Source of the DNA: a virus
IMG/VR virus record: IMGVR_UViG_3300028920_002946
Coordinates: 62,001-126,000 of that record
Reading direction: 5' to 3' (one strand)
DNA length: 64,000 bases
Every line of letters starts with the position of its first letter. Within the stretch, counting starts at the first letter, position 1. Made by a program: the position numbers and the translations under genes. Of the stretch, positions 2,219-31,989 are shown one piece after another. Under the pieces are notes generated by a model. The model ran no database searches, was not told the DNA's origin, and saw nothing but the letters and a program-made list of their open reading frames with translations.

Positions 2219-4636
2219 CTACTCTATCCCCGTCCACCCGGGCATCCCGGTGGCCCCTATCACGCCGTACCCGTGCCTCTCCGTGTGCGTGGACGACACC
2301 CCCGTGGCCCCCGACACCGCCCCGCCCGAGAACCACAGGTCCGACAGCACGGTCGTGCCCGTCTCCGTCGTCCGGGCGAAGAACCACCACGGGCCCGTCC
2401 ACAGGGAGGGCAGTTCCATGGCGACCGTCCGCCGCGGCACCGAGCCGCCCACCGTCACGCGGGCCAGATCGCCCTGCAGCGACACGTTGAGGTTCACCGC
2501 GCCGTACGTGCTGCCCGTCGTGCCGAACAGCCAGTCGTAGTCCGCGCCGCTCGTGCCGATGCGCAGCGTCACCGTGTCGTTGACCGTGTCCACGATGGCC
2601 CCGGCCCGGTTGTCGCCGTTGTCGGCGCCGAGGTACAGGGTGTCCGCCCCCACGTCGCCGCGCACCTTCAGGTCGAAGTCGGGCGTCACCTCGTACTCGC
2701 CGACGATGTCGATCTCGTTCGTGGCGGTCAGGCTCCTCGCGACCGTGTACGTCCCCGTCCCGGTGTAGCCCCCGTCCGAGAACCTCGCCACGGCCGGGCT
2801 GGCCAGCGCCTGCGTCGCCGACTGCGGCACCCCCACGAGGGTGGCCCCGCTCGCGCCCTGGAAGGACGGGTAGTACCCGGGCCTGACGGCGACGTACCGG
2901 GCGCCCGAGGCGAGGGCGGCCTGTATCGACCTGTACGGCCCGGTCTCCGAGCCGTCGTTCGAGTCGTCGCCGTCCGGGGACACGAAGACCGCCCCCGTCT
3001 CGTAGACGGAGAGGTCGGGGTGCACGATGATCGTGTCGACCGTCCGGCCGCCCTGCACCAGCAGGAGCCCGTCGGTCACGGTCATCCCCCGGCTTCTGTA
3101 CACCCCTCGCCTCGCCGCACCCGTGTACCCCGTCCAGGACCCTCCCCCCGTGGACCCCGACAGGGCCGGCACCTCGTGGGTGCCCGCGTCCAAGGGGCCG
3201 CCGTCGGAGTGGCTGTACGCGTAGTCCGGCGTCCAAAACGGCCCCGTCTCCGTGCCTTGGTAGATGACGTCGTAGCCCCGATCCGAGAACCAGCTGCCCG
3301 TCGACCCCTCGTTTGGGTTGCGCTCGTGGGCGCCGACGTCGCCGTAGCCGTCCAGCACGTACCTGTGGGCGCCCGCGATGTCGACATCCCTCCCGAAGGG
3401 GGTCACGTTGCCGCGCGTGTCCGGCCCGATGCTTGTCCACCCGCCCGCCGTGAGGCCCACCCCCATCTCGCCGAGTATGTCCGTCCACCGCCCCGGGTCG
3501 CCCGCGTCGATGTCCGGCGACCCGGACTCGAGCCTGTAGTCCCCCACCGAGGCGTCCGCGTACATGGGCGCCCCCGTGAAGTTGCCCGCATCATCTGTCG
3601 GGACGGCGCCGGTATAACCAACGTCGGCATGCCAGAAGTTGTTGTATCGGATGTTTATGGGCTGGTTGAAGTAGACGCCCAGGCTGATGTTGTCGACGTC
3701 GTTGCCCGTGATGTTGTTGGAGTCCACCCTGCTGTCGGGGGACACGGTGACCCCAAATATCTTCACCGTGTTTGAGGTGGCCGCGTAGCCCGCCTCGGAG
3801 TACATGACTCGCACGACATCCCCCACGGCGAACTCGTCCTCCAGCCGCAGGCCCTCCCACTTCACGATAGAACCGCTGCCGACGACTATGTAGTCCTCGC
3901 CGTACGCGAACGACGGCCCGTTCACCACGTTCATGGCCACGTCGTACTGCCCGTTCTGGTCGACGGAGGCCCAGCCGGGCAGCGCTATGACCATGTTCGT
4001 GATGTTCGCCGCGGTCAGGGTGCGGTAGATGACCCGCATGTCCTGGTCGAGCTGCGCGGGGGGCGGCGCCCCGTCCTTGGCGTATATGGTGTTGCGCCAC
4101 AGGTCTATCCAGTCGACGGTCTCGACATCCACGGCCTTGTATCCGTCGTCGAAGACATTCTGGGCGATGGACACCTCCTCGGCGTCCCTGAGGTAGATGC
4201 CGGAAAGGTGCCGCACCATCCTGTTTCGCAGGATGGACACATAGGCCGCGTTGTCGATGATGACCGGGTTGTCCACGTCCTCGAAGACGCAGTCGACGAC
4301 GGACACCCCGCCGATGTGGTCGCCGCCCATGGGGGGCTCGTTGTCGAGGGTGATGCCCGTGTCGAGGTTCTCGAAGTGGAGGTGCTCGAAGGTGCCCTGG
4401 CAGTCGTCGACGGTGAGCGTGCCGACCCGCGGCCTGGCGCCCGGGGTGCCGATGACGCTCACGCTCCTGGACACCGCGAGGTCGCCGTAGGACGCCCCGT
4501 CCCCCGGCTGCACGGACATGACGCCCCCGTCGGAAACAAGCGAGTACCCCTGCGCCAGCGTCCGCACCGGCTTGAGGAGGCTGCCCTCGCTCGAGTCGGA
4601 GCCGTTGAGGGAGTCAATGTAGACGACGGGACGCAT
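2219..4636 (-). CDS. Tailspike-like protein with two parallel beta-helix regions
   Basis: The 805-residue protein is a probable receptor-binding or polysaccharide-active tail spike. The N-terminal region (about 1-240) shows right-handed beta-helix features: short repeated strands rich in V, I, N and D, such as VSVVDCVFEDVDNPVIIDN. A second region near 550 restarts with the same opening motif (GSDSSEGSLLKPVRTL near 10; DDSNDGSETGPYRSIQ near 556), implying an internal duplication. The last 200 residues are a beta-rich C-terminal domain. No catalytic residues could be assigned. It sits 3 bases from the PKD/lectin gene. Confidence 0.75.
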   Translation of the reverse strand: MRPVVYIDSLNGSDSSEGSLLKPVRTLAQGYSLVSDGGVMSVQPGDGASYGDLAVSRSVSVIGTPGARPRVGTLTVDDCQGTFEHLHFENLDTGITLDNEPPMGGDHIGGVSVVDCVFEDVDNPVIIDNAAYVSILRNRMVRHLSGIYLRDAEEVSIAQNVFDDGYKAVDVETVDWIDLWRNTIYAKDGAPPPAQLDQDMRVIYRTLTAANITNMVIALPGWASVDQNGQYDVAMNVVNGPSFAYGEDYIVVGSGSIVKWEGLRLEDEFAVGDVVRVMYSEAGYAATSNTVKIFGVTVSPDSRVDSNNITGNDVDNISLGVYFNQPINIRYNNFWHADVGYTGAVPTDDAGNFTGAPMYADASVGDYRLESGSPDIDAGDPGRWTDILGEMGVGLTAGGWTSIGPDTRGNVTPFGRDVDIAGAHRYVLDGYGDVGAHERNPNEGSTGSWFSDRGYDVIYQGTETGPFWTPDYAYSHSDGGPLDAGTHEVPALSGSTGGGSWTGYTGAARRGVYRSRGMTVTDGLLLVQGGRTVDTIIVHPDLSVYETGAVFVSPDGDDSNDGSETGPYRSIQAALASGARYVAVRPGYYPSFQGASGATLVGVPQSATQALASPAVARFSDGGYTGTGTYTVARSLTATNEIDIVGEYEVTPDFDLKVRGDVGADTLYLGADNGDNRAGAIVDTVNDTVTLRIGTSGADYDWLFGTTGSTYGAVNLNVSLQGDLARVTVGGSVPRRTVAMELPSLWTGPWWFFARTTETGTTVLSDLWFSGGAVSGATGVSSTHTERHGYGVIGATGMPGWTGIE

Positions 4637-4639
4637 CCG

Positions 4640-5461
4640 CTACACCCCCAGGGCCGCCGCGTCCGCGGCCATCAGTTCGCGCACCCAGGCGGGGTGCAGG
4701 TACAGGTCGCTCGCGTAGCGCCAGTTGTACAGCCCGACCGCCTGCCCGGCCTTGTCGAGGTACGGCACCCACACGTAGCCCGAGCCGCTCCTCGTGGCGT
4801 AGGACCGGGGGCGCGAGTACAGGATGCCGTCGGAGTCCGCGCCGGACCTCGCCGGGCACTCGACGCCGTCCACGTAGAAGGTGATGCGCCCGTCGGTGCC
4901 GCACACCCAGCAGAGCATGTGCCAGCCCTCGTCCGCCAGGCTCACCCCTGTGGTCGCCTCGACGAGGTTGGACTGCGAACCCTTGAATCCGAGCCGGTGG
5001 TCGCCAGCCGCGGCGTCCCACTGCAGTTCGAAGCACACGGCCTGGTCGGCGCCGCGCACGTCGCCATCGGGGTCCGACACCGCAAGCGGGATGATCGAGT
5101 ACCCCTCCGGGCCGAAGATCGGGTTCCTGACCCACCCCATGCACGTCAGCGCCCCGCAGTACTTCACCGACGGCCCCGAGAGCGACACCGCCGGGGACTC
5201 CGAGTGCGACGCGGACACGTAGGTGTCCACCACGCCCGTGGCGACCCCGTCCCCGTCCCCGTTGGAGGCCGTGAGGACGACGTCGAAGCTGTCCACGCCC
5301 GTGTAGAGGTGCGACGGGCTCGCGTCGCCGCCGGTGGTCCCGTCCCCGAACTCCCACAGGTAGGATGTCGGGAGGCCCGTGCTCAGGTCCGTGAACTGGA
5401 CGGTGAGCGGGATCTCGCCGTAGTCGGGCGCCCCGGTGAATCCGGCAATGGGTGCCGCCAT
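4640..5461 (-). CDS. PKD plus LamG-like adhesin, tail-associated
   Basis: The 273-residue protein begins with a PKD domain (about 1-85) containing the hallmark WEFGDG motif. A concanavalin A/LamG-type fold follows (about 90-270), with WHMLCWV and ITFYVDG strands typical of lectin-like domains. Both domains bind carbohydrates or protein surfaces in extracellular proteins. In a phage tail operon, next to a beta-helix spike, the likely role is host-surface adhesion. There is no signal peptide, as expected for a virion component. Confidence 0.75.
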   Translation of the reverse strand: MAAPIAGFTGAPDYGEIPLTVQFTDLSTGLPTSYLWEFGDGTTGGDASPSHLYTGVDSFDVVLTASNGDGDGVATGVVDTYVSASHSESPAVSLSGPSVKYCGALTCMGWVRNPIFGPEGYSIIPLAVSDPDGDVRGADQAVCFELQWDAAAGDHRLGFKGSQSNLVEATTGVSLADEGWHMLCWVCGTDGRITFYVDGVECPARSGADSDGILYSRPRSYATRSGSGYVWVPYLDKAGQAVGLYNWRYASDLYLHPAWVRELMAADAAALGV

Positions 5462-5481
5462 CTCAGCCGCCTTTCAGCCTA

Positions 5482-5790
5482 TCAAGAGCCGGTTTCGCCA
5501 TAGTTGTACACCACGCGCAGCGTCAGCGGCCCGGTCACGCCGTGGGACGTGTCGTTCATGACATCCTTGACATCCGAGTTCGCCAGGTCGAGGGCGATGA
5601 GGCCCGTCCAGCCGTGGTGCGTGACGCCGAAGTCCACGCCGTTGCGCTGGGCCGGCCCGTCGGTGGGGTCGAGGGCGACGTCGTAGTTGCCGTCCGGCCC
5701 CGTGGTCGGTGGGTACTTCAGGACGAGGTAGTCGTTGCTGCCCGGGCCGACCTGCCCCGTGATGCTGTAGAATTCGACCTCGATCGCCAT
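5482..5790 (-). CDS. Small beta-rich tail-operon protein, unknown function
   Basis: The 102-residue product is beta-rich and has no recognised domain. Its 5' flank carries a TAATnnTCT-type motif, so it is probably the first gene of the tail transcript that continues through the PKD/lectin and spike genes. The ATG is preceded by GGGAGATAAC. A small virion protein is the most likely role. Confidence 0.6.
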   Translation of the reverse strand: MAIEVEFYSITGQVGPGSNDYLVLKYPPTTGPDGNYDVALDPTDGPAQRNGVDFGVTHHGWTGLIALDLANSDVKDVMNDTSHGVTGPLTLRVVYNYGETGS

Positions 5791-5828
5791 GTTATCTCCC
5801 TTTCAAGGGGCGCCATACATCATAGCGC

Positions 5829-5847
5829 GTCTATTAAGAGAGAATTA
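5829..5847 (-). promoter_or_regulatory. Candidate late promoter motif, site 2
   Basis: The minus strand reads TAATTCTCTCTTAAT, a full match to TAATnnTCTnnTnAT, 39 bases upstream of the gene starting at 5790 and just past the end of the endonuclease-methyltransferase gene. Confidence 0.6.
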
Positions 5848-5859
5848 TGGCATCCCCGG

Positions 5860-8115
5860 TTACTTCCGCCAAACGTAGAGGGGTTCCCCCTCCTTCTGCC
5901 TGCTGCGGGTGTTCCAATACCGGGTGGGCAGCCCCTCGAGGCGCGTGCGCGGAAGGGCGCAATGCAAATTGCGCGGGAGATTGAGGACCAGGTAGCCGCC
6001 CGGCTCCAAAGCCGATTCGGCATACTGGAAAATCAGCCCCATAAGATCCCTCCACTCCCCGCGGCCCATTTTCCTGCCGTACACCTCCAAATCGATGTAC
6101 GGGGGCGAGGTAAACACAAGATGGCACCTTTCGGGGGCGCCCTCCAATGAGAACCCGCCGTGAACGAGGTCGCACCGGGCCGCGGACACGAAATCCCTCA
6201 TGGCGCACAAACCCTTGTGGGTCTTGCCCCAAGGCTCGAACCCCACGTAGGACCTCCCGCTGGAAACGGCCCCCAGCATCCGGCCGCCCCATCCCGCGCA
6301 CGGGTCAACGACAACGCCCCCAGGGGGGCTGTAGCGCTCGACGACAGCCTTGGCCACCACGCTCGGAAACGCGGTGACGCCCCCGCTGTACTGTATCAAC
6401 GCGTTCCGGACGAATTTGGGAAGTATGCTTTTCTTGGACTTCAGGCAATACTGCAGGGTCGAATGAAGCGTGGAGTGCCCGGAGAAGGTGTCAGCCGGCG
6501 AAACCCCGCGATATGTGGCCTCGCTCATATGGGGCATGTAGTGCTTGAACAACTCATCACCCACGTTTGCATACCTCAAGACCGTATCGGACTTCCACAG
6601 GTATCTGCTCTGAAACGACTCTATCAACTTCCAGGATCGGCGAAGATACTCGTCCCCGTACCGGGGAGCCGGGAACCCCTTGGAATGATAGTAGGCAACC
6701 GCGTCGTGCAGCACCTCCGGATTCAAGTCAACCACGTACTTGTTTACAAAAGACAAATCCAGGTCGGTGTTGACGGCGGGCTTGAACAACTCCGGAAAAT
6801 AGGTTTCCCAATAGGAGCCCAAATAACCCTCATCGGACGACTTGTACCAAAAGCCGGGCAGTATATACTCACCGGGCACAGGCTCGATGCGCAACGTCCT
6901 TCTGGCGGCGTTCTTGAAGAAGAATCGATTCTCCAACGACCCTATAATGGACTTCCCGGCAGTGACTATGTCCCCTTGTGAACCGTCATCCATGAAATAG
7001 CACGCCCGGCCGAGGTCATTCAATTCGGCGGCGATCATCTCGAAATTCCTGGACCCATCCGGGTTCAGATACCTGCAGTATTCATCGAACCCCGGGCACG
7101 AGAGGCCTATCTGCTCCTCGGACACTATCACACAGTCCTCATAGGCCTGGCCCTTCCTCGGCACCGTAACCACATTGGACAGATGATCCCGCAGTATCTG
7201 CGCCTTCACGTAGAGGTAGCTCAGCTGCGCCAAGGAATGGTTGACCACAAAGCGGCCGTTGAAGTCCAAATGGCCGTCGCCCATCAGCCATCCAAGCAGC
7301 ATCTGATGCACATCCTCGTCGCGGGGGGGCGTCTCCATCGGGGGGCGCCCCACGAGAAGATCCCGTATGGCCTCCAAGTCGCCGCTCCAGGCGACCCTTC
7401 TTTCAGGCAGCGCTATGCCCGCCTGCGCGATCCTGCGATGAAGGACGGTTTCCGAAACCCCCCTCTCCCGGCTGAGGGCCGCAACGCTGCCGGCCTTTTT
7501 CAAGGACTCCTCAAACTCCTCGTCGCTTCCGGAGTTGGCGATGCCCCTGGCCCTGTGTATCCGGTGCCACCTCGGGCCATCGAGGCCGATGCTCTTGATG
7601 TGGATCAAGAGGTCATCATCGTTTACACGGACGCCGTGGATGCGCTCTATCTCACCCGCCATGTCGACAACGCGCATGTCGCGGGACAGCATATCCTCCA
7701 CATCGCTCTTCTTGACATGCCCCCTGAGCCATGTCCGGTTATCCAATGACTTGATGCCGAACCTCCGGAGCCACCACCCAGCCGTATGTCTCGTAAGGGC
7801 CAGCCCGAATTCCTCATTCAAGGCCAAGGCGACCTGTTCGTAGCCGAACTTCTTGGTCTCGCACAGATACCGGGCCCGGTCTTTCATCGCCGCCGTCCAC
7901 GACGACTCCCCGAGAACCTGGGAAGCGGCGGCGCGCTTGGGCTGGATAAGGCCCTTTTTCTTGAGGAGGGAGATCTGCCTCTTGACCCAACGAGGCGTCT
8001 GACCGAGACGCTCAGCCATCTCGGCATTCTTCATCGATGAGTAGTTTTCGACGATAAACTTGAGGTTCTCGGGGGTCTTGCGGTCGGCGGTGACGCCCCT
8101 CTTTGGCGTGCTCAT
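5860..8115 (-). CDS. HTH array - LAGLIDADG homing endonuclease - DNA methyltransferase fusion
   Basis: The 751-residue protein joins three functions. Residues 1-250 look like several winged or helix-turn-helix segments (for example MAERLGQTPRWVKRQISLL, 33-51). Residues 272-440 form a LAGLIDADG-type endonuclease with motifs LLGWLMGDG (273-281) and ACYFMDDGS (371-379). Residues 465-751 are a complete amino-methyltransferase with SAM motif VVDPCAGWGGR (602-612) and catalytic TSPPY (669-673). The ATG at 8115 was chosen because a host-type promoter ends six bases upstream; there is no Shine-Dalgarno. Distinct neighbouring operons suggest a mobile insertion. It shares architecture with the gene at 28352-30946. 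N4-cytosine or N6-adenine specificity cannot be told from the sequence. Confidence 0.85.
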   Translation of the reverse strand: MSTPKRGVTADRKTPENLKFIVENYSSMKNAEMAERLGQTPRWVKRQISLLKKKGLIQPKRAAASQVLGESSWTAAMKDRARYLCETKKFGYEQVALALNEEFGLALTRHTAGWWLRRFGIKSLDNRTWLRGHVKKSDVEDMLSRDMRVVDMAGEIERIHGVRVNDDDLLIHIKSIGLDGPRWHRIHRARGIANSGSDEEFEESLKKAGSVAALSRERGVSETVLHRRIAQAGIALPERRVAWSGDLEAIRDLLVGRPPMETPPRDEDVHQMLLGWLMGDGHLDFNGRFVVNHSLAQLSYLYVKAQILRDHLSNVVTVPRKGQAYEDCVIVSEEQIGLSCPGFDEYCRYLNPDGSRNFEMIAAELNDLGRACYFMDDGSQGDIVTAGKSIIGSLENRFFFKNAARRTLRIEPVPGEYILPGFWYKSSDEGYLGSYWETYFPELFKPAVNTDLDLSFVNKYVVDLNPEVLHDAVAYYHSKGFPAPRYGDEYLRRSWKLIESFQSRYLWKSDTVLRYANVGDELFKHYMPHMSEATYRGVSPADTFSGHSTLHSTLQYCLKSKKSILPKFVRNALIQYSGGVTAFPSVVAKAVVERYSPPGGVVVDPCAGWGGRMLGAVSSGRSYVGFEPWGKTHKGLCAMRDFVSAARCDLVHGGFSLEGAPERCHLVFTSPPYIDLEVYGRKMGRGEWRDLMGLIFQYAESALEPGGYLVLNLPRNLHCALPRTRLEGLPTRYWNTRSRQKEGEPLYVWRK

Positions 8116-8121
8116 GGCATA

Positions 8122-8150
8122 AATATACAGCGACCCAAGAGCCGTGTCAA
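8122..8150 (-). promoter_or_regulatory. Host-type sigma70-like promoter of first fusion gene
   Basis: On the minus strand TTGACA (8150-8145) is followed after exactly 17 bases by TATATT (8127-8122). The ATG at 8115 begins six bases past the -10 box, so the transcript would be leaderless or nearly so. Confidence 0.8.
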
Positions 8151-8171
8151 CTAGGGCCTTACATTTTTTCG

Positions 8172-9053
8172 TTACATGGAGCCAATCCAATTACGCCTCG
8201 ATTGAACTCCGGGTTTGGAATAAGGCCCCAAAGCCGAACTGATTCCTATACCGTAACGCGGCTGCTTCAGACCGCGGACGATTTTTATCGATTCCTTGGC
8301 CTGCTCCGCGGCCTCCTTGAACTCGGTCAGGAAGTTGTTCTTCATCGACTCGTACTTCGACGACTTCTCGAGATCCAGGGAGACCCCCGATATGCTGTAG
8401 CCGTATTCGTCGGCGATCCAGTTGAGGGCCACGGCCGCGCAGGCCATGGCGGCCGCGCGCATCAGCACGGTAGTTCTCCACCTGATGGGCATGTCCGTGA
8501 GGCTGACCCCCGTGACGGGCGGGTAGGAGTTGAACAGGTCCACCGCCATGAGGAGGTACTCGTAGAGCTCCTCGTCCTCCCATATGTACCCGAACACCTG
8601 CGTCTGCGCCTGCAGGAACTTCTCGTGGGACGGCGGCCGGAAGCGGTAGTTGCGGTCGGGGTTGTTGTCCCGCAGGATGATGCGCAGCCTGCGGACCATG
8701 AGGTCGGCCGTCTCGTCGCCGGTGACGCTGACCGTGACGCAGTCCTTCACCACGTTGAAGGCCTGGACGGCCTCCACGAGCGGAGAGGTCGGGGTCTCGC
8801 GGAAGTTCCAGCGCACGAGCCAGTCGCCGATGTTCGAGTCCAGGGGCAGCGTGGCATCCACGTAGTACTGCCCGGTGCCGGAGGTCGCCGGCACCCTGTC
8901 CGGCGCCCCTATGAGCACCTCCACGCCCGTGGTGTCGTCGAAGAGGGAGTACCGGATGTAGGCCGGGTCCGTCGGGACCCCGGAGCCGTTCCTTACGGTG
9001 ATTTTCAGGTCGTCCTGCGCGAGGGTCTGCCCCGGCTTGAAGGCAACTGACAT
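8172..9053 (-). CDS. Virion structural protein with Ig-like N-terminal domain
   Basis: The 293-residue protein has a beta-sandwich-like N-terminal domain (about 10-100) that parallels the upstream neighbour at 9110-9568. Both contain a YIRYSL/WIRYDV strand, a W-x-x-RW-x-F/Y strand and a closing hydrophobic strand. The C-terminal part is helical (about 120-260). A TAATnnTCT-type motif lies 41 bases upstream of the ATG. It is probably a tail, neck or fibre-attachment component; no specific family was recognised. Confidence 0.65.
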   Translation of the reverse strand: MSVAFKPGQTLAQDDLKITVRNGSGVPTDPAYIRYSLFDDTTGVEVLIGAPDRVPATSGTGQYYVDATLPLDSNIGDWLVRWNFRETPTSPLVEAVQAFNVVKDCVTVSVTGDETADLMVRRLRIILRDNNPDRNYRFRPPSHEKFLQAQTQVFGYIWEDEELYEYLLMAVDLFNSYPPVTGVSLTDMPIRWRTTVLMRAAAMACAAVALNWIADEYGYSISGVSLDLEKSSKYESMKNNFLTEFKEAAEQAKESIKIVRGLKQPRYGIGISSALGPYSKPGVQSRRNWIGSM

Positions 9054-9093
9054 CTCGAACTCCTTGCTGCTGGCGCCTCCTACGTTAACCCGA

Positions 9094-9112
9094 TGGTATC
9101 AAAAGGGTATTA
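9094..9112 (-). promoter_or_regulatory. Candidate late promoter motif, site 3
   Basis: The minus strand reads TAATACCCTTTTGAT, matching TAATnnTCTnnTnAT except at position 7, 41 bases upstream of the gene starting at 9053. It overlaps the last codon and stop of the preceding gene. Confidence 0.5.
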
Positions 9113-9568
9113 CGGGGTTACAATCAAGGAGGCCGCGAGATCGCGCCAGGGGTCGGTGACGGTGATGGTGCCGGACAGGCTGTGGTATGTCGCGGTGACA
9201 TCCAGGCTGCCCTCGTAAACGCCCGCGCATGCGACGGTGAACATCCTCTCGATGGCCTGGACGCCGGACGCGGCGGACACGCGGTATTTCCAGCGCAGGC
9301 GGTAAGTGCCGGTTGGCCAGTCGTCCGCTATGATGAAGTTGGCCCTGAACAGGCCCGTCCGGAGTTCCTCGGCGCGTCTGTTCAGGGATCCGATGCGCTG
9401 CGGGACGCCCGTGGATGGATCCACCCAGGCGACATCGTAGCGTATCCAGTAGGGCGAGTAGGCGTTGGAAATCCCGTCGGGGTGATAGACCGAGTTGGAC
9501 CAGAACGATACGTTGAGGTCGTCCCTCTCCAGCCTGTAGCCTTGGTAGTAAACGCCCGTCTCGCCCAT
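9110..9568 (-). CDS. Small Ig-like structural protein
   Basis: The 152-residue product is a beta-sandwich-like domain related in pattern to the first 100 residues of the next gene (8172-9053). The ATG at 9568 has GGGAG upstream; an ATG at 9589 is also in frame but lies right against a strong hairpin. The two neighbours probably arose by duplication of one Ig-like domain. A tail or fibre role is inferred from context. Confidence 0.6.
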   Translation of the reverse strand: MGETGVYYQGYRLERDDLNVSFWSNSVYHPDGISNAYSPYWIRYDVAWVDPSTGVPQRIGSLNRRAEELRTGLFRANFIIADDWPTGTYRLRWKYRVSAASGVQAIERMFTVACAGVYEGSLDVTATYHSLSGTITVTDPWRDLAASLIVTP

Positions 9569-9592
9569 GTCGCCGGCTCCCTCGTACATGAA

Positions 9593-9620
9593 GGGCCGGC
9601 GGCGTCACCGCCGTCGGCCC
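9593..9620 (-). terminator. Stem-loop between two structural genes
   Basis: A 12-bp GC-rich stem with one wobble pair and a 4-base loop lies between the stop of the 49-residue gene (9644) and the start of the next. There is no U-tract, so it may be a weak terminator or an RNA-stability or processing hairpin. Confidence 0.45.
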
Positions 9621-9643
9621 GAGTTCCCCTCTCAGGGCAACCC

Positions 9644-9793
9644 CTAGCTCTTGACGGAGCTCTTGACCTCGCCCGAAATCAGCCCGCTCTGGGTCACTGC
9701 GACCTTGGACGCATCCTTCTTGTCCTTGTTCTGCAGATGCGGGTATGCGTTGGGCTTGGCCTTGTTCTCATAGATTCCGGATCCGTTTGGCAT
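9644..9793 (-). CDS. 49-residue hydrophilic peptide
   Basis: This small reading frame starts MPNGSGIYENKAK and ends SGEVKSSVKS. It is Lys- and Ser-rich, without membrane segments. The start has GGAGG five bases upstream, the best ribosome-binding site in the interval. It fills what would otherwise be a 230-base gap in a tightly packed operon. The function is unknown. Confidence 0.6.
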   Translation of the reverse strand: MPNGSGIYENKAKPNAYPHLQNKDKKDASKVAVTQSGLISGEVKSSVKS

Positions 9794-9826
9794 AAGTGCC
9801 TCCTTTATTGCGTGCTGAATCGCGGC

Positions 9827-10228
9827 CTATTCCCCGGGGCCGCCCGGTTTTGGTACCTCGTACGGGTTGGCCAGCATAGAGAAGCTGTCCAGCGTGAACT
9901 CCATGCCGGGTGCGTCGAAGTGGCGCAGGTCGATTGTCTTGACCGGCTCGCCCTCGCCGAAGAAGACAAGACGGTGCTTGACAGGCTGCCCGTCCAGCCG
10001 GAGCAGCTGCACGTCGTTGACCTTCACCTTCAACTCGCGCGCGATGCGGCTGTAGTCCGGGTCGGAGATGAATTTCTTCTTCTGACCCGGCGTGAGGTAC
10101 ACTTTTCTCTCCGTACCGGAGACGGCCGCCTCGATGGCGTTGCTGACGGCGTCGATGTCCGCGGCCTCCTTGAGGAGGCCCTTGGACTCCAGATCCGACG
10201 CGATGCGGTCGAGTCTCTCGGTGATCAT
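9827..10228 (-). CDS. LESKG-module protein, head/tail region
   Basis: The 133-residue protein begins with the helical module found in three neighbours: DRIASDLESKGLLKEA (about 7-22) then DAVSNAIEA. The remaining 100 residues are a compact basic and beta-containing domain of no recognised family. The start codon overlaps the upstream gene's stop (ATGA), implying coupled translation. The shared N-terminus suggests a targeting or cleavable propeptide for virion assembly; this is inference. Confidence 0.65.
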   Translation of the reverse strand: MITERLDRIASDLESKGLLKEAADIDAVSNAIEAAVSGTERKVYLTPGQKKKFISDPDYSRIARELKVKVNDVQLLRLDGQPVKHRLVFFGEGEPVKTIDLRHFDAPGMEFTLDSFSMLANPYEVPKPGGPGE

Positions 10229-10686
10229 TCCCCGTCCTCCGGCTCGTCTATGTCGAGCACGAGTTCTATTTCGAAGTCGATGGTGCCTTTCCCCTCGTCG
10301 ACATCCGGCATGTAGTCCACCTGGTCCTCCCAGATGTAGTCGTCGAAGTCCTCGTCAAGGTCGCTGGTGTCGAGGTCGGAGTACGTCTTCTTGAGGTAGG
10401 GGATCAGCTTCGGGTTGATCTCCTTCTTGAGATCCCCCTCGTGCTCCTCCACCCAGTCCATGATGGCGGCGTTGAGGACGCGGTAGCTCTCGGGGATCGC
10501 CCCGTCGAACGACAGCCTCATCTTCGCCCACACGTCGACCTGGGCGAACATGTCCCGCTCGCCGTCCGCGACGGCCTCGACGGTCGTCTCGTCGACGCTC
10601 TCGAAGCCGAGGAACTCGACGTCCTTGAGCCGGAGGTTGCGCGAGGCCGCCACCTTCATGGCCTGTACAGCTGAAAGCCTGAGCAT
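10225..10686 (-). CDS. Acidic structural-operon protein, unknown
   Basis: The 153-residue product is acidic, with a DLDTSDLDEDFDD stretch near 108-120 and a Glu/Asp-rich C-terminus. The N-terminal 40 residues look like a helix followed by strands. No family was recognised. Its stop overlaps the next gene's start by four bases, so the two are probably made in fixed ratio. A role in tail or head assembly is inferred from position only. Confidence 0.6.
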   Translation of the reverse strand: MLRLSAVQAMKVAASRNLRLKDVEFLGFESVDETTVEAVADGERDMFAQVDVWAKMRLSFDGAIPESYRVLNAAIMDWVEEHEGDLKKEINPKLIPYLKKTYSDLDTSDLDEDFDDYIWEDQVDYMPDVDEGKGTIDFEIELVLDIDEPEDGE

Positions 10687-11877: not shown

Positions 11878-13173
11878 CTACATAATCATAGCGTGGCTGT
11901 TCCAGAAGGCCTCCGACTGCGACAGCTCCTCGGGGGTGTGCTGGTGGCCTGACCCGCCGCCCTTGATGCCCTTGATGTTTCTTCTGATGGTCTCCGGCGC
12001 CATGGGCGTGCCCGCCGGGGTCGGTTCCGCGTTGAAGGTGATGATGTCCCAGTCCGCCCCTGTCGGCCTGCCGTCCGGCTCCTTCTCGAGCTGTGCCTTG
12101 GAGTACAGCACGACATCGACGTGGTCGGAGGGGATGGGTTGGACGTCCTTGGCCTCGAAATACCTCTGCTCGTACTCCTCCTCGAAGTCGCGCCTCTTCG
12201 TCGTCCTGGTCTTGAGGAGGGGTTCGTTCTGGGGCGTTATCTTGGCGATGGGGCACTTGATGTTCGGATCCTTCACCCTTGCTATCCTCACGAAGTCCGC
12301 ATAGCCCAATTTGGCCTGCCCCGTGCGGATCTGCCTCTCGGCCTCCTTGCGGAGGCTCTCCATCTGCGCGCGCGAGAGTTTCGTGCCGACGAAGTCCGGC
12401 TTCGCCTGCCTGAGCGCGAACTTGTTGATGCCCACCGCCGCCTCCGCATCCTGCTGCGCGGCTGCTGCCTCTATGGTGTTCGAGACGATGTCCAGCTCCT
12501 CGGCCTCCCGGACCAGGCCCTTCGACTCCAACCTTCCAGCTATTTTGTCGATAGCCTCGGCGCATGCATATTTCAAGCCGCTGTATTTGTCCGCCAGGGA
12601 TTCCGAGCCGCCATACTTCTCCATCTGCTCGGTCTCCTCCTGTTTGTCCCATGCGGCGCGCTGCTGCTGCGCCCGCTGCACCATGGCCTTGACCTCGTTG
12701 GGGCCGAGCCTCTTGGCCGTCTGGAACATCTGCTCCACCTTCGCGGCGGGAAGACGACTTAAGATGTTCTGCGTCCAGCGGCCCATCCCGCCGGGCTGCT
12801 CGAAACCGGGCACCACCAGCCAATCGCGGAGTTGCTTACCCTTAAGGCCGACTGCGACCTCGTAGGCATCGTAATCCCCGGGATTGGGGAGATCCTTCTG
12901 TGGGATGCAGTTATGCTTCTGCGAAGCCTGTATCGAGAATGAAAGGCCGTTGGGAAGGTCTATCGGCTCGTTCATCTGAGGGTCGTCGGTTCTTCTTTTG
13001 AGTCTTCTGATGAACTCGTAGTTCGCCTTGCGCGCCTGCGGGGCGCGGGGGTCGATAGCATACGCTTCAACCGTATTGGACACGGTGTCCAGCTCCTCGG
13101 CTTCCTTAAGGAAACCCTTCGACTCGAGGGAGTTGGCGATCCCGTCAATCTTCGAAGCTATCCTGTCGTACAT
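11878..13173 (-). CDS. Protein with two LESKG modules, probable fusion
   Basis: The 431-residue protein holds two copies of the helical module: residues 3-37 (IANSLESKGFLKEAEELDTV) and 205-236 (IAGRLESKGLVREAEELDIV). Each copy is followed by its own domain, so the gene looks like a fusion of two module-bearing proteins. The first unit has a globular region about 75-160; the second is mixed alpha/beta. It follows the 239-residue module protein by 3 bases. Position and repetition suggest virion assembly; the biochemical role is unknown. Confidence 0.65.
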   Translation of the reverse strand: MYDRIASKIDGIANSLESKGFLKEAEELDTVSNTVEAYAIDPRAPQARKANYEFIRRLKRRTDDPQMNEPIDLPNGLSFSIQASQKHNCIPQKDLPNPGDYDAYEVAVGLKGKQLRDWLVVPGFEQPGGMGRWTQNILSRLPAAKVEQMFQTAKRLGPNEVKAMVQRAQQQRAAWDKQEETEQMEKYGGSESLADKYSGLKYACAEAIDKIAGRLESKGLVREAEELDIVSNTIEAAAAQQDAEAAVGINKFALRQAKPDFVGTKLSRAQMESLRKEAERQIRTGQAKLGYADFVRIARVKDPNIKCPIAKITPQNEPLLKTRTTKRRDFEEEYEQRYFEAKDVQPIPSDHVDVVLYSKAQLEKEPDGRPTGADWDIITFNAEPTPAGTPMAPETIRRNIKGIKGGGSGHQHTPEELSQSEAFWNSHAMIM

Positions 13174-15577: not shown

Positions 15578-16133
15578 TCAGAGACAGGTCCACATCACAG
15601 TCAATCTCGTCACCCCACACATCCCATCCGACAGACTTCTGCCTAGCGAACAGCTCTATTCGCGGAACATCGCCGCAAACATCAACAATCTTTCCCCGTA
15701 TGTCATCAGGCTTTTTAGAATGACCGCCTCTTTGATGCATAAACACATTAGGAATTCTACTCACGGTATCAACCGTAAACCTTCCTCGAGTACCAAACAG
15801 AATATGCTCAGTCGCACCCCTGAAATAAAATCCCATGCCATTGTTAATGACATTTCCTTGCTTATCAACCTTCACCCAGGTAAGAGTTGTTTTGTAACTG
15901 AATCCCCAAGCACTCATAACCTCAAAACCATACACTATCTTAGGATTCGTAACCCACAGAAAAAGGGCGCTGTTGTCGTCCGCTATCTCCGAAACAGGTA
16001 GCCGACAGATCTTCTCAACCGTCATCGTACCGTAATGGGCCTGCGGATTTCCCCCACGAGCGGCTTTTCTCCGCTTCTTCATCTTACCGTAATCCCAAGG
16101 GGGGTCGGCGTAAATAACGCTATACCTCTTCAC
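15573..16133 (-). CDS. MT-A70-family adenine methyltransferase
   Basis: The 186-residue protein is an MT-A70-type N6-adenine methyltransferase. It opens KRYSVIYADPPWDYG, with the catalytic DPPW at 10-13, and has the family's conserved later segments (ALFLWVTNP, GFEVMSAWGFSYKTTLTWVK, ATEHILFGTRG). The GTG start at 16133 overlaps the stop of the glycosyltransferase gene (GTGA), so translation is coupled. Its base composition is clearly more AT-rich than its neighbours, and exact AT-rich repeats flank its 3' end, suggesting recent acquisition. It probably modifies phage or host DNA; self-protection is inference. Confidence 0.88.
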   Translation of the reverse strand: MKRYSVIYADPPWDYGKMKKRRKAARGGNPQAHYGTMTVEKICRLPVSEIADDNSALFLWVTNPKIVYGFEVMSAWGFSYKTTLTWVKVDKQGNVINNGMGFYFRGATEHILFGTRGRFTVDTVSRIPNVFMHQRGGHSKKPDDIRGKIVDVCGDVPRIELFARQKSVGWDVWGDEIDCDVDLSLI

Positions 16134-19100
16134 CCCTTGAACTTCTCGATCCACCCGTCCGCGATCTTCTCCCACGAGTACTCCTTCATCTTCGCCTGCG
16201 CCTTGTCAGCCCACTCTCTTCGATAGTTGGCATCCGTGAGTAGCTTGATCGACTCCTCCACAAATCTATCCGTGTACTCCTTCGGATAGTCGGCGTCCAT
16301 GGGCAGGCCGTCGCCCGGAATGAGTATCCCGGACGGCCCAACGGTCGTCTTGAGGCCCGCGCGGTCGGTGGAGAGTATCGCATTGTGGGACAGGCCGTTC
16401 TCGACGGCGCCTATGCAAAATGTCTCGTCAAACCAACAGGGATAAAGCCAGACGTTGGCCCTCTTCTGATGCTCCGCCAATGTGGCCTTGTCGATGCGAT
16501 CAAGATACTCGACGCCCGGCTGCTCCATCGCCGCCTTGATCTTCTGGATGAAAGCCATGCCCCTCTGGTCGTTCCTGCGCTTCACGGCCGACTCCCAGTT
16601 GTAGAAGCCGTAGGCCACCTTCAGCTTGAAGTCCGGGACGGCCTTCCGTATCTCCGGCATCATCTGCAGCAGCTGATACAGGCCCCTGTCCGGACTCGAC
16701 GAATACACGGAGCAGTTCTCCTTCGCGGAGTCGTCGACGTCATTGTACAGATCCTGCACGACGCCGTTGGCGGTGAGGAACATCTTCTCGGGCGGCAGCT
16801 GCTTGTGGTGGCCGCAGAGGAACTCCTTGTGCCAATCGGAGAGGTAGGCGTACCCCTGCACCTTCCACGCCATCACATCGTAGTTGGGGTCGGGGTTCAG
16901 CCATATGTCGTGCACCATGACGTAGTTGCGCCCGCTGTGCAAACTCTGCCTCATGGGCTCGCAGCTACGGGACGATATGAAGTAGTCGATGTAAAGGTAC
17001 TGTATGTCCTCCATCATCTTCGTGTGATCCACGTACCGCACGGCGCCGTAATCGACGCCCCCCTCGACGACCGGGTCGAGGGCCACATCGTCCTTCGAGT
17101 CGGCGAGGAGGTCGTTGTAGACGGTGGCCTCGTAGCCCTTCCTCACGAACGCGCGCGCGAGGTACGCGGCCCACGTCTCCGACCCCGCCATCCCCTCGTC
17201 CACCCTCCGGCGGTTCCACGGCTCCCACGCGGGTCCCGTCCAGATGGCGATGCGCTTCCTCTCCCACTTCCGCTTGAGCATGACATGGTTCTCGCGGTCC
17301 TCGGCGTCGTAGCTCTCGCGGTCCTCGTCCTGGTAGGCGCCGCGGCTCACGCCCCCGAAGTGGAACACGAAGGAGCCGATCGACTGCCCGCACGCGAACC
17401 CGGCCTTCCCAAGCCGCATGCACAGGTCGAGATCCTCGCAGCCGTTCTTGAACCGGGTGTCGAACAGCCCAACCTCGTTGATGGCGCTGCGCGCGAATAT
17501 GGTGGCGTAGGCCGCGACCCACTCCTGCGGCTGGAAGATGTCCCTGTGCCTCCTGTTGGAGGCCTCCATGAACTCGTACAGCTCGTCGATGTGCGGGGTG
17601 ATCTCCTCCAGCTTCATGCCGGGGTGCAGCTCGACCCCCGCCCTCTCCAGGCGCATCGGGTAGGTCGGCTTCCCCGGGGCGCCGTGAAGCCATGACCTGT
17701 CGCAGTTCGACAGGACGCCGCAGGACGCCAGCCGGTGCACGGTTTCCATGTGCCTGACCATGTTGCCGAGCCAGCCCTTGGACACGACGACGTCGGAGTT
17801 CATGATGACGAAGAACTTGCTGCGCGAACTGCGTACCCCCGCGTTGCAGGCCTCCGAGAAGGTCTTTCGGGCCCCCTCCTCGCCGAGGACCGTTATCCCC
17901 TTCAGCGTCCTCAGATACTCCCACACCTCCGGCCCGCTCCCCGCGTCGCTGACGACGATGTGGAACGGGTGCACCGTGTTGAGGCGTATGGAACTGAGGC
18001 ACAGCTTGAGGTACTCGAGGTTGTTGTAGTTCGGGATCACGAGGTCGACGACATCCCGCGCCTTCTCCACGCTCGCGGGTGCCTCCGCGTGCTCCAGCCT
18101 GATGGTGCCATTCACGAGGCTGTCGAAGAGGTTGATGTAGTTCTGGACGTTGTTCTCGAGCCTGTAGGGGGCGACCGACCTCTTCGCGGCCTTGCCCACC
18201 CGGCGTCGCTCGCCCACGTCCCCCAGCTTGCGGAGGGCCTCGCCCCACTCCTCCTTCGTCTCGGCGATGAAGCCGTTCTCGCCGTGGGCGATGATCTCCT
18301 TGTAGGCCTGCAGCGGGCTCGCGATGACGGGCATCCCGAAGGCCATGGCGGTCGTCGCCTTCACGCTGCTCTTGCCGGGCTGCACGTCGACCCTCTGCGG
18401 GCAGAGGGCCACGTCGCAGGCGGCGAGGTCGTCCGGCCACGTGTCCGGGTCCCACTTGATGTCGGCGTTGTCCCACTCGGAGATCACCACCAGGTCGTAT
18501 CCGGCCGACTCGATGGTGTCCCGGAGGTGGTCGGTGACGAGGAAGGAGTTGCCGCCCATCCCCATGAACACGGCCTTCGGCCTCTCCCCCTTGATCTCCT
18601 TGTATTGGTGGGGCTTCCGCGGTTCGCGCTCCTCGACGCTGTCCTTGAGCACGACCGTGTGCAGGAACCCCCGCTCCCGCGTCATCTCCGCCAGCTTCGT
18701 CGAGCAGCAGAGGATGGCGTCGGCCTCGTGCATGCACTCGTCCTCGAGGGGGAACCCGAAGATGCCCTCGCAGTGGTCGAAGCATATCCTGCGGTTCTTG
18801 GCCTTCATGGCCCGCATCAAGTCCAGTTCGGCGGGGCCAAAGCTCGTGAACACGACGACGTTCGCCGTGCCGACGGCCTCCTCGACATCCTCCGCCGACA
18901 TGTTCTGGTACCCCACCACCCTGCGGCTCTCCACCCTCTTGCCCCGAAGCTTCTCGTCGATGATGAGTCGACGCAGTCTCGTGGAGGGGTTGGTGGCGTC
19001 GTCGTTGGGCAGCAGCCACACGACGGACGTCTTGCGGTGCTTGCGCAGTCGAAGGTCGGCGTGCAGTCCGTTGTTGGCGAGCACCTCCACCATGAGATCG

Positions 19101-20257
19101 CGGTTGCGCAGGAGGTTGCCGAGGGCGTCGAGATCCCCCTGCTCGATCGTCGACCCGCCGGTGCCCTTGCGGGTCTCCTCCTCGATGGCCGCCTTCAGCG
19201 CGCGGGCCTCCCTGCTCTCCGGCTTCTTCGATATCGCGTGGTCGACATGCTTGAGCGCCTCGCCCAAGCTCCTCCTCTTGAGCATGATCGTCGCCAGCTT
19301 CATCGAGGGGATGTACCCGTAATAGTCGACCAGCTGGGACATGCCCCCGGAGAGGGTCTTGGTGAGGGCCTCCCTGTAGTACGTGACGGCCTCGTCCTCG
19401 CGCCCCTCCTCCTCGGCTATGAGGCCCAGGACGACATGGTTCTCGGCGTATATGCCGTTGAACCGTATCCCGAGCATCGCGTAGTTGCGGGCCGCCTCCT
19501 TGTTGCCCTGCTTCATGTAGTAGTTGGCGAGCCGGATGCAGCCGACGGTGAGGTTGTCCACGAAGCCCTCGCCCCTCGCCACGAACTTCTCGAGGACGGG
19601 GACGGCCTCCTCCCACTTGCCGATGTCCGCCAGCTCCTTGCCGTAGTAGAAGGCGATCCTGGCGGACGCGGCGCCCGTGTCGTACTCCTGCTTGAGCAAG
19701 GTCAGGTTGCGCTTGGGGTCGTACGGCCGGTTGCGGTAGTGGTCGATCTTGATGTCGAGGCGGCTGATCCGCATCGACCCGTCCATGTTGAGGTACTCGT
19801 GGATGGGATCGTGCCAGCGTATCTTGGGCGTGTTGCGGACGAGCCGCTCCCTCGGGAGAATGAGGACGGGTCGGTCCTTGTCGTCGTGCGAGTAGACGTA
19901 GTCCATGAGGACCACGTCGATCTCCGGCAGCTTCTCGACGAGGGCGTTGATCTTGTCGTGTTCGGACTCCTTGACCACGTCGTCGGAGTCCAGCCAGAGG
20001 ATGTGCGCCGCCTCGCTCTGCTCGAACGAGTAGTTGCGGGCCTTCGAGAAGTCGTCGCACCACTCGAAGAAGGCGACCTTCGTGGCGTACTTCTCGGCGA
20101 CCTTCACGACCTCCTCGTCGCGCATCCTGGTGGCGTGCGTGATGACCACCTCGTCGAAGTTGATTCCCTGCACGCTCTTGAGGCACCGCTCGAGGATGTC
20201 GGCCTCGCCGGATCCCACTATCAGGTTCAGTCCCAGCTTCTTCGTGTGCTCCGCCAT
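16130..20257 (-). CDS. Giant multidomain glycosyltransferase
   Basis: The 1375-residue protein strings together four sugar-transfer units. Residues 8-170 are a GT-A (GT2-like) domain with WLDSDD (88-93). Residues 195-360 are TPR-like helical repeats. Residues 405-710 are a GT-B/GT4-like domain (CPQRVDVQPGKSS and FGMPVIASP near 620-648). Residues 738-985 are a second GT2-like domain (IPNYNNLEYL, MNSDVVV, GCEDLDLCMR). Residues 1005-1375 are a second GT4-like domain (WFDETFCIGAVE near the C-terminus). It could glycosylate virion proteins, host surface polymers or modified DNA bases; no acceptor can be read. The following MT-A70 gene is translationally coupled. Confidence 0.88.
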   Translation of the reverse strand: MAEHTKKLGLNLIVGSGEADILERCLKSVQGINFDEVVITHATRMRDEEVVKVAEKYATKVAFFEWCDDFSKARNYSFEQSEAAHILWLDSDDVVKESEHDKINALVEKLPEIDVVLMDYVYSHDDKDRPVLILPRERLVRNTPKIRWHDPIHEYLNMDGSMRISRLDIKIDHYRNRPYDPKRNLTLLKQEYDTGAASARIAFYYGKELADIGKWEEAVPVLEKFVARGEGFVDNLTVGCIRLANYYMKQGNKEAARNYAMLGIRFNGIYAENHVVLGLIAEEEGREDEAVTYYREALTKTLSGGMSQLVDYYGYIPSMKLATIMLKRRSLGEALKHVDHAISKKPESREARALKAAIEEETRKGTGGSTIEQGDLDALGNLLRNRDLMVEVLANNGLHADLRLRKHRKTSVVWLLPNDDATNPSTRLRRLIIDEKLRGKRVESRRVVGYQNMSAEDVEEAVGTANVVVFTSFGPAELDLMRAMKAKNRRICFDHCEGIFGFPLEDECMHEADAILCCSTKLAEMTRERGFLHTVVLKDSVEEREPRKPHQYKEIKGERPKAVFMGMGGNSFLVTDHLRDTIESAGYDLVVISEWDNADIKWDPDTWPDDLAACDVALCPQRVDVQPGKSSVKATTAMAFGMPVIASPLQAYKEIIAHGENGFIAETKEEWGEALRKLGDVGERRRVGKAAKRSVAPYRLENNVQNYINLFDSLVNGTIRLEHAEAPASVEKARDVVDLVIPNYNNLEYLKLCLSSIRLNTVHPFHIVVSDAGSGPEVWEYLRTLKGITVLGEEGARKTFSEACNAGVRSSRSKFFVIMNSDVVVSKGWLGNMVRHMETVHRLASCGVLSNCDRSWLHGAPGKPTYPMRLERAGVELHPGMKLEEITPHIDELYEFMEASNRRHRDIFQPQEWVAAYATIFARSAINEVGLFDTRFKNGCEDLDLCMRLGKAGFACGQSIGSFVFHFGGVSRGAYQDEDRESYDAEDRENHVMLKRKWERKRIAIWTGPAWEPWNRRRVDEGMAGSETWAAYLARAFVRKGYEATVYNDLLADSKDDVALDPVVEGGVDYGAVRYVDHTKMMEDIQYLYIDYFISSRSCEPMRQSLHSGRNYVMVHDIWLNPDPNYDVMAWKVQGYAYLSDWHKEFLCGHHKQLPPEKMFLTANGVVQDLYNDVDDSAKENCSVYSSSPDRGLYQLLQMMPEIRKAVPDFKLKVAYGFYNWESAVKRRNDQRGMAFIQKIKAAMEQPGVEYLDRIDKATLAEHQKRANVWLYPCWFDETFCIGAVENGLSHNAILSTDRAGLKTTVGPSGILIPGDGLPMDADYPKEYTDRFVEESIKLLTDANYRREWADKAQAKMKEYSWEKIADGWIEKFKG

Positions 20258-27247: not shown

Positions 27248-27260
27248 GAGTCTTCACCTT

Positions 27261-27980: not shown

Positions 27981-28048
27981 ATGTGCTATGGACGGAACAT
28001 TAACAGAGTATTGGATTTAGGGCAGTAGGCGGCACCCCGCCGGCGCGG

Positions 28049-28276
28049 TCAGTACCCCTGTTGCTGGCTTCTGCCGTACGGGTAGAAAAACGTCGTGCCT
28101 GCGCCCTGCAGGTTGCGCTGGTGCTGGAAGTCTATGTCGCGGACAAGATTCCCCGAAACGTTGATGACGGCGTCGCCGTCGGCGCCGCCCATGTCGGAGT
28201 CGCGGAGGTTGTAGAGGCCCCCGGTCCCGCCCGTGCTCTGGTTCGCGCCCTCCTGCCCGACCCTTCTGTCTGACAT
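28049..28276 (-). CDS. 75-residue Gly/Gln-rich protein
   Basis: The short product is rich in Gly, Asn and Gln (ANQSTGGTGG, ending YGRSQQQGY) and probably disordered. The ATG at 28276 has AGGAG seven bases upstream. A TAATnnTCT-type motif lies 36 bases upstream. It may be a small virion protein. The function is unknown. Confidence 0.6.
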   Translation of the reverse strand: MSDRRVGQEGANQSTGGTGGLYNLRDSDMGGADGDAVINVSGNLVRDIDFQHQRNLQGAGTTFFYPYGRSQQQGY

Positions 28277-28311
28277 GTCGCCGACTCCTATGCTGTGTGG
28301 CACATAGGATC

Positions 28312-28330
28312 CGGCATGAGAAGAATATTA
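28312..28330 (-). promoter_or_regulatory. Candidate late promoter motif, site 8
   Basis: The minus strand reads TAATATTCTTCTCAT, a full consensus match, 36 bases upstream of the ATG at 28276 and just after the second fusion gene. Confidence 0.6.
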
Positions 28331-28351
28331 CCTGAAAGGAAGTCCGCGGGA

Positions 28352-30946: not shown

Positions 30947-30953
30947 GATAGGT

Positions 30954-30982
30954 AATATAGCATTTGGAGATGCTACTGTCAA
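30954..30982 (-). promoter_or_regulatory. Host-type sigma70-like promoter of second fusion gene
   Basis: On the minus strand TTGACA (30982-30977), 17 bases, TATATT (30959-30954), then seven bases to the ATG at 30946. The spacing and leaderless layout mirror the first fusion gene's promoter. Confidence 0.8.
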
Positions 30983-31094: not shown

Positions 31095-31976
31095 CTAGCG
31101 AGCAATCTTCACGCGGCACAGCGCCAGCGGGTTGTAGCAACCAATCCCAAGGTGTTCGAAAATGCTGAACCCTATCCTTCTTGCCCGGGGATCGTCTGCG
31201 CTCAGAACTGTGAGTTCTGTACGGACGGGAATACGCCCGAAGAACTCCGGCTCCGCGCACACGTAGGCGTACCCACGCGCGACCTTACGAGAGACGATGA
31301 CCTGCGCGCCCCAGAGGGTGGCGAGCATGCCGCTCTTCAGCAGCGTGGCCTGGCTCTCGAGGTCGAGGACATCGCGGCCCCACTTCCTCAGGTCGGCGAA
31401 GTCCAGCGCGTTCATGAACACGCGGGCGACCCTGAGGTCGTGCGTCTCGATGCGCGCGTAGGCGTCGATGAGGTTGGAGGGGGTGAGCGGCGCCACGGCG
31501 TTGACCTGGGCGTTGGTGTAGCTGCTGTCCAGGTTGTCGAAACCGTTCGCAGCGACGGCGTCCATGACGTCGAAGATGCGTCCGTCCTCAGCGGCCTGGA
31601 TCTGCGCCTTGCCGAGGTCCTGGGCGCGCTCGATGATGTCGAAGCGGCGCTCCTTGACCTGGGTCAGCGGGATCTCAGGGTTCGAGGCGAGCTCGAAGAG
31701 CGGGAAGGTCACCCTGCGGCCCTTGACCACGGCCAGGATGTTCTCGCCCTCTTCGCCGACCACGAATGCGGTGACGTTGGGGTCCTTGTCGTAGATGGGC
31801 AGTGCGCCATCCGGGAGCTGCTCGACCAGGAATGCCTTCCTGGCGACCGACGTGTAGTCTCTCCGCAGACGGAGAGGCTGGATCATCGACGCAGCGATCT
31901 TCGCACGGCCGGAGGCCGTCTTCAGATACTCGTTGATGATTTGCTGCTTGACCTCGTTGCTGATAGTGTCAGGCAT
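31095..31976 (-). CDS. Major capsid protein, HK97-fold-like
   Basis: The 293-residue protein has the layout of an HK97-type capsid subunit. An N-terminal helical arm is followed by a region with LVEQLPDGALPIYDKD and VTFPLFELAS. A long helix comes next (about 105-140), then an A-domain-like part (YARIETHDLRVARVFMN). The C-terminal strands include an APVIVSRKV-like turn (WGAQVIVSRK). Strong AGGAGG upstream of the ATG, a structured leader and a powerful terminator downstream all fit very high expression. It follows the decoration-like and scaffold-like genes. Confidence 0.8.
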   Translation of the reverse strand: MPDTISNEVKQQIINEYLKTASGRAKIAASMIQPLRLRRDYTSVARKAFLVEQLPDGALPIYDKDPNVTAFVVGEEGENILAVVKGRRVTFPLFELASNPEIPLTQVKERRFDIIERAQDLGKAQIQAAEDGRIFDVMDAVAANGFDNLDSSYTNAQVNAVAPLTPSNLIDAYARIETHDLRVARVFMNALDFADLRKWGRDVLDLESQATLLKSGMLATLWGAQVIVSRKVARGYAYVCAEPEFFGRIPVRTELTVLSADDPRARRIGFSIFEHLGIGCYNPLALCRVKIAR

Positions 31977-31989
31977 GTTCCTTCCTCCT

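Follow-up and report, generated by a model that had tools for sequence, protein, structure and literature searches.

LAGLIDADG nuclease-methyltransferase fusion genes beside virion genes of large phages: candidates for homing restriction-modification units

The fusion gene and its paralogue

The stretch of DNA analysed here, in the following called the window, comprises 64,000 nucleotides and corresponds to positions 62001-126000 of a viral contig of 182,677 bases from IMG/VR (IMGVR_UViG_3300028920_002946). On its minus strand, at 5863..8115, lies a gene coding for a protein of 751 amino acids (P0001), with an ATG at 8115 and the stop codon at 5860-5862; its reading frame is intact and open upstream as far as a TTG at 8190. 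An earlier, sequence-only reading had described a single chain of 751 residues with HTH segments, two LAGLIDADG motifs and a complete amino-methyltransferase, which is borne out by the frame and by Pfam, where the order of matches is HTH segments, LAGLIDADG_2 and N6_N4_Mtase. The N6_N4_Mtase model (PF01555) matches with E = 4e-6, above its cut-off, the HTH families with E values of about 1e-3, and LAGLIDADG_2 with E = 9e-5, which is just below the 25-bit cut-off by hmmscan and above it in a second Pfam run.

The entire HTH-rich N-terminal region (about residues 6-236; 7408..8100, minus strand) is helical in the structural model, with pLDDT values of about 75-90 for the HTH units. It begins with a module here called m1 (residues 6-61; 7933..8100, minus strand), which also occurs at the C-terminus of the nuclease-Mom proteins that other phages carry at this site. 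The LAGLIDADG nuclease domain follows at 6730..7329 (about residues 263-462, minus strand) and contains the two motifs with the catalytic aspartates, LLGWLMGDG (residues 273-281; 7273-7299) and ACYFMDDGS (residues 371-379; 6979-7005), and the amino-methyltransferase domain of the phrog_12517 family occupies 5863..6729 (about residues 463-751, minus strand), with motif I, VVDPCAGWGGR, at residues 602-612 (6280-6312) and motif IV, FTSPPY, at residues 668-673 (6097-6114). The positions of the two LAGLIDADG motifs had been given exactly in the earlier reading. The PF01555 match, the conserved SAM motif I and the SPPY-type motif IV identify the C-terminal part as an amino-methyltransferase fold. 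Its fold matches include Trm11 and a type I methyltransferase, and because Trm11 is the top match, RNA is possible as a substrate. The model of P0001 (mean pLDDT 71.5) is confident in the methyltransferase but weaker in the LAGLIDADG part, and the structural argument for the nuclease therefore rests on a paralogue.

This paralogue (P0002; 28355..30982, minus strand; 876 aa, with the frame open from a TTG onwards) was found 23 kb away by searching the virus record with the P0001 protein, and it has the same domain order: HTHs, LAGLIDADG_2, a methyltransferase of the family of P0001 (with SSPPY) and, in addition, a C-terminal homing-endonuclease-associated repeat. As LAGLIDADG_2 matches the paralogue with E = 1e-13 and the domain order is kept in 38 distinct proteins, the domain calls in P0001 are far beyond chance. 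Both catalytic domains of the paralogue are confident in its AlphaFold model (pLDDT mostly 85-97), and among PDB structures this model matches I-SceI, a homing endonuclease, best (E = 5e-7). The LAGLIDADG_2 matches and this structural match, together with the invariance of both catalytic aspartates described below, place the nuclease part in the LAGLIDADG homing endonuclease fold.

A promoter-like sequence, TTGACA-17-TATATT, is found at 8122..8150 (minus strand), 7-35 bases before the start codon and inside the intergenic insert; it agrees with the sigma-70 consensus at 11 of 12 positions, a consensus match of a kind of which about 1.6 are expected by chance in the 6 kb scanned. A similar promoter-like sequence is present at the same place in L146, and the site would fit an autonomous cassette.

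Elsewhere in the window, on the minus strand, the head maturation protease gene (33991-36885; phrog_18299, 964 aa) appears to contain an intein, judging from NNYCFTAGTRVLMSDGT near residue 100 and from the protease match, which resumes at residue 528. Also on this strand are genes coding for a protein with a strong DUF3228 match (11878-13173; E = 1e-27) and for a 1375-aa protein with TPR repeats and several glycosyltransferase domains (16130-20257).

Two insertion sites beside virion genes

The gene for P0001 lies directly 3' of up293 (8172..9053, minus strand; 293 aa), a conserved gene of the virion gene region whose 3' end marks the insertion site, and is followed by the conserved downstream neighbour dn102 (5482..5790, minus strand). 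The junction of up293 and dn102 is empty in L147, L144 and L141, where the two genes are adjacent or overlapping, and is filled by a LAGLIDADG-methyltransferase gene in the window, in the 173-kb phage L143, which carries an orthologue at the same locus, and in L146, likewise with an orthologue. A further orthologue, retrieved by protein similarity alone, lies 3' of up293 in L317, which comes from cellular assemblies and is probably a mis-binned phage contig. In L138, L139, L140 and L142 the junction is filled on the opposite strand by another kind of fusion, a nuclease-Mom protein of about 690-830 aa with a REase-fold nuclease, and the same type of protein is encoded 3' of up293 in L145 and L202, where dn102 was not found. 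These opposite-strand occupants have homing-endonuclease-like and Mom domains according to Pfam and PHROGs (PF25680 above cut-off; phrog_3339 and phrog_1384). A search of the virus record itself for Mom gave no match, and the control genomes gave none either.

The second site is the 3' side of the major head protein gene (31095..31976, minus strand; phrog_2522, E = 4e-54), and the paralogue lies directly 3' of this gene. The fusions retrieved from L009-L020, L027-L031, L107, L297 and L298, for which protein similarity was the sole criterion, are all located 3' of the head gene, and the site is without a nuclease in L217. Occupants with a nuclease and no modifier were found in L021-L025 and L274; since some occupants of the head-gene site consist of a nuclease alone, the modifier is not always needed. 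In the sequences compared, the fusion genes occupy two fixed sites beside virion genes, with empty and occupied states. The sequence-only reading had raised the question of whether the same order recurs at empty and occupied insertion sites, and this was found to be so at both the up293|dn102 and the head-gene site.

An assembly error as the source of the join, a possibility considered in the same reading, is rejected because the domain order recurs in independent contigs, among them L143 with its syntenic orthologue, L146 and L317. Likewise, a group I or group II intron is rejected, as the neighbouring genes are uninterrupted and no Rfam intron match was obtained in the window at 4500-10500 or 27000-33500.

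Further features were noted at both sites and in their flanking genes. At the up293|dn102 junction, a gene of the uracil-DNA-glycosylase superfamily takes the place of the nuclease fusion in L137 (5943-6644), and the fusion gene of L317 is separated from dn102 by a serine-resolvase-like ORF and a TnpB-like ORF (5645-7667), corresponding to an IS607-like element. Gene up293 is intein-interrupted in L146 (3069-5448), L202 (5001-7377) and also L317 (1329-3156), with the halves in two overlapping ORFs; the C-terminal half of the intein combines a PD-(D/E)XK-like nuclease (EVDGCYWHGC) with the splicing domain PF14890 (7e-8 in L146), so that the insert resembles a nuclease-bearing split intein, and the gene it interrupts is the one bordering that for P0001. 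Homologues of up293 are split into two to three pieces in G003, G004, G008 and G009 (the records of L009, L012, L031 and L019), suggesting introns or further insertions in this gene. At the head-gene site, L267, L274, L276, L277, L278 and L285 code for zinc-finger proteins that have a Vsr-like or EDxHD-like nuclease motif but lack a modifier, and RRXRR/IscB-like ORFs were noticed by eye directly 3' of the head gene in L252 (5158-7083) and L268 (2129-3325). In L235, L240, L249 and L238 even the major head protein gene is interrupted (e.g., into pieces of 54 aa and 226 aa), and LAGLIDADG fragments occur near the interrupted gene in L235.

Conservation of the fusion and exchange of its modules

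Including the two proteins of the window, 38 distinct LAGLIDADG-methyltransferase fusions were counted, all with the same domain order. IMG/VR gave no relatives when searched with P0001 alone; its relatives were reached with the paralogue and LR745208 as queries. A plasmid search gave no match, and with PADLOC only separate MTase_II and HEase models matched and no curated restriction-modification fusion model. Both LAGLIDADG aspartates are kept in all 38 fusions and in one LAGLIDADG-Mom protein, a proportion (39/39) which may be biased upwards, as the LAGLIDADG profile used to find the fusions may miss degenerate copies. Every member that extends into the methyltransferase motif region has D..G.G.R and SPP[YF], bar one with ACPPY. 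Accordingly, neither active site is broken across relatives, the second circumstance that might have spoken against the fusion as originally read. For the close pair L237/L240, dN/dS values of 0.06-0.08 in the HTH, nuclease and methyltransferase regions indicate purifying selection on all domains.

Two sequences depart from this pattern. LR745208, a 485-kb phage record, codes for a 1229-aa version with two HTH-LAGLIDADG units and the methyltransferase, of which the first LAGLIDADG copy lacks both catalytic positions and is dead and the second is intact. In L219 (1578-3362) the methyltransferase is intact, and the N-terminal region resembles LAGLIDADG without both catalytic aspartates, probably representing a nuclease-dead example. 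With these two LAGLIDADG copies, one dead and one apparently dead, the parts of the fusion can act apart.

The methyltransferase family also occurs stand-alone in phages, with at least 506 matches, nearly all of the best 80 of which are stand-alone, and HTH-LAGLIDADG proteins without a methyltransferase exist as well (L021-L025). As each part exists alone, the fusion is a join of two complete proteins and not an insertion of one into the other. In the methyltransferase tree, the LAGLIDADG label needs about five changes, at least three of which are forced by well-supported branches; as it changes so rarely, most fusions must have been inherited together, and our reading of the tree is that of a history of few joins or losses with inheritance afterwards.

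Several contigs carry more than one such gene or domain 3' of the head gene: two LAGLIDADG-methyltransferase genes in tandem in L228, L246 and L297, a fusion and, after it, a nuclease or methyltransferase on its own in L248 and L282, and two methyltransferase domains in one chain in L247.

With respect to the HTH modules, m1 recurs at the C-terminus of the nuclease-Mom proteins, with 52% identity over 56 residues in L142, and the nuclease-Mom protein of L202 matches P0001 with E = 9e-24 over residues 6-179. A profile of m1 matches eight of the nine occupants of the up293 site and none of the 46 at the head-gene site, and a profile of the second HTH module, m2, matches 33 of these 46 but no occupant of the up293 site (p = 7e-9 and p = 8e-5 for m1 and m2, respectively, Fisher's exact test, with related proteins sharing sites). 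Because of this sharing, the informative cases are those across families, namely the nuclease-Mom proteins carrying m1 and, for m2, the Vsr-like proteins of L254, a methyltransferase fusion, and L274, a nuclease. From these comparisons, one HTH module tracks the insertion site and not the type of nuclease.

The catalytic parts are variable, too. At the head-gene site, L225 codes for a LAGLIDADG-Mom fusion, with both Pfam models above cut-off, and L254 and L263 code for Vsr-like nuclease-methyltransferase fusions, assigned by motif only; at another locus, LR756508 is a Vsr-methyltransferase fusion by the Vsr and NUMOD3 models. As LAGLIDADG-methyltransferase, LAGLIDADG-Mom, Vsr-methyltransferase and nuclease-Mom combinations all occur, nuclease and modifier have been exchanged independently.

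Relation to known systems and possible function

The architecture of P0001, which is real, conserved and site-specific, joins two known kinds of enzyme. With LAGLIDADG homing endonucleases (I-SceI; PF03161; phrog_11023) it shares the fold, both aspartates and the site-specific placement by conserved genes, but in contrast to these it stands without an intron or intein and has several HTH modules and a full-length methyltransferase. Type IIG, IIL and IIB enzymes (BpuSI, MmeI, TstI) likewise unite a nuclease and an amino-methyltransferase in one chain, whereas P0001 has a LAGLIDADG nuclease and the order nuclease-methyltransferase with HTH modules, and is phage-borne at fixed sites. The stand-alone phrog_12517 methyltransferases of Vibrio phage 2.058.O, Twortvirinae and Bacteroides phages have a homologous domain with motif I followed by motif IV but, unlike P0001, no HTH or nuclease part. 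A homing endonuclease and a methylase also come together in one phage ORF where a LAGLIDADG endonuclease is inserted inside an actinophage methylase gene (PMC9957025) and in the hidden HNH insertion in a methylase of ShiLan (PMC11855218); there, however, the methylase is the interrupted host gene, while in the present case the fusion in its entirety forms the insert, with an uninterrupted methyltransferase.

The Mom domains of jumbo phages are, according to Iyer, Anantharaman, Aravind and colleagues, typically joined to REase-fold nucleases, a pairing that these authors interpret as restriction-modification-like (PMC7824862). These fusions, like P0001, unite a nuclease and a DNA modifier in one phage protein, but with another nuclease fold and another modifier; P0001 falls outside their class, carrying LAGLIDADG and a methyltransferase instead. 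The passages of that paper on Mom and DNA modification make no mention of homing sites, site-linked HTH modules or LAGLIDADG-methyltransferase fusions. The sequence-only reading had regarded the architecture as unfamiliar from established systems, and this holds for the LAGLIDADG-methyltransferase fusion, which, like the module exchange and the site logic, was not found described in the open-access literature searched, but not for REase-Mom fusions, which had already been published.

We consider it moderately probable that P0001 is a free-standing homing endonuclease with a built-in DNA modifier protecting its undisrupted target, i.e., a homing restriction-modification unit. The idea of such a unit had already been put forward from the sequence, and it fits well with the conserved active sites, the fixed site with empty and occupied states and the swapped nucleases and modifiers. 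The fusion gene would then be a free-standing homing element of large phages, outside any intron or intein, whose HTH modules would guide the protein to a single site, located where a conserved phage gene has its 3' end. In co-infecting or recombining phage genomes without the element, this site would be cut by the LAGLIDADG domain, and repair off the element-bearing genome would copy the element in. Because the element is placed beside and not within the conserved gene, the target is likely to persist in the carrier genome, and a persisting target would in turn give the modifier a purpose: the C-terminal methyltransferase, or Mom in sister elements, may modify this target or the DNA around it, so that the carrier stays uncut and cleavage is directed at sites lacking the protein's own mark. 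Overall, this would amount to a one-protein restriction-modification unit spreading by homing. Counting against this reading are the nuclease-only occupants of the head-gene site, the dead or apparently dead LAGLIDADG copies of LR745208 and L219, and the few changes of the LAGLIDADG label in the methyltransferase tree.

The strongest alternative, though an unlikely one, is that the modifier serves as anti-restriction cargo that shields the whole phage genome from the host, the homing nuclease merely spreading the gene. The frequency of the methyltransferase family as a stand-alone phage enzyme would be expected from such cargo, as would the nuclease-only relatives at the same site, and phages are known to modify DNA by means of Mom (PMC7824862). 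However, the fusion in one chain, with two types of nuclease and two types of modifier and with a site-specific HTH, favours a target shared by both activities.

It is improbable that the protein acts chiefly as a weapon against co-infecting phages in the manner of type IIG enzymes, cutting many short sites in rivals that are marked in the carrier, with little homing. Nuclease-Mom fusions are read in this way by Iyer and colleagues (PMC7824862), and the interference competition between jumbo phages caused by an intron endonuclease of PhiPA3 (PMC11620839) shows that rivals can be attacked by nucleases of this sort. A single long target is, however, indicated by the strictness of the insertion sites and by the HTH module linked to the site. 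The LAGLIDADG fold, moreover, typically reads long sites, which also counts against a weapon of this kind.

Very improbable is a role of LAGLIDADG in DNA recognition only, on behalf of a site-specific methyltransferase that regulates expression of the head gene or of neighbouring genes: the apparently dead LAGLIDADG beside the intact methyltransferase of L219 and the one dead copy of LR745208 would suit it, but the catalytic aspartates are invariant in 39 proteins, and the Vsr-type fusions replace LAGLIDADG by a different nuclease fold. Finally, the possibility that P0001 is an intein, or that a homing endonuclease has invaded a methyltransferase gene, including the missed N-extein that had been considered from the sequence, can practically be discounted. 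Phage methylase genes that harbour LAGLIDADG endonucleases or inteins are known (PMC9957025), but here the methyltransferase part can be aligned over its full length with stand-alone enzymes of 330-390 aa, HTH-LAGLIDADG proteins exist alone, no Hint, intein or splicing domain was found in P0001 by Pfam, which does recognise the true intein half of L146, no group I intron was found by Rfam, and the gene upstream is up293 and not a methyltransferase.

Beyond the single protein, we tentatively suggest that the homing restriction-modification units may form a modular class, in which HTH modules, nuclease (LAGLIDADG or Vsr/REase fold) and modifier (methyltransferase or Mom) are interchangeable within one polypeptide and confer epigenetic immunity on an undisrupted target. 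A homing endonuclease usually spares its own genome because its site is lost on insertion or has diverged. If the modular class is real, its elements can reside next to essential virion genes and go on cleaving the unmarked alleles of these genes, and the built-in modifier would be a third solution to the problem of self-sparing, uniting homing endonucleases and restriction-modification in one mechanism. The origin and the selfish behaviour of restriction-modification would become directly testable, and the occurrence of nuclease-modifier fusions in large phages would be explained. Such elements would also constitute a natural set of swappable modules for targeting, cutting and marking.
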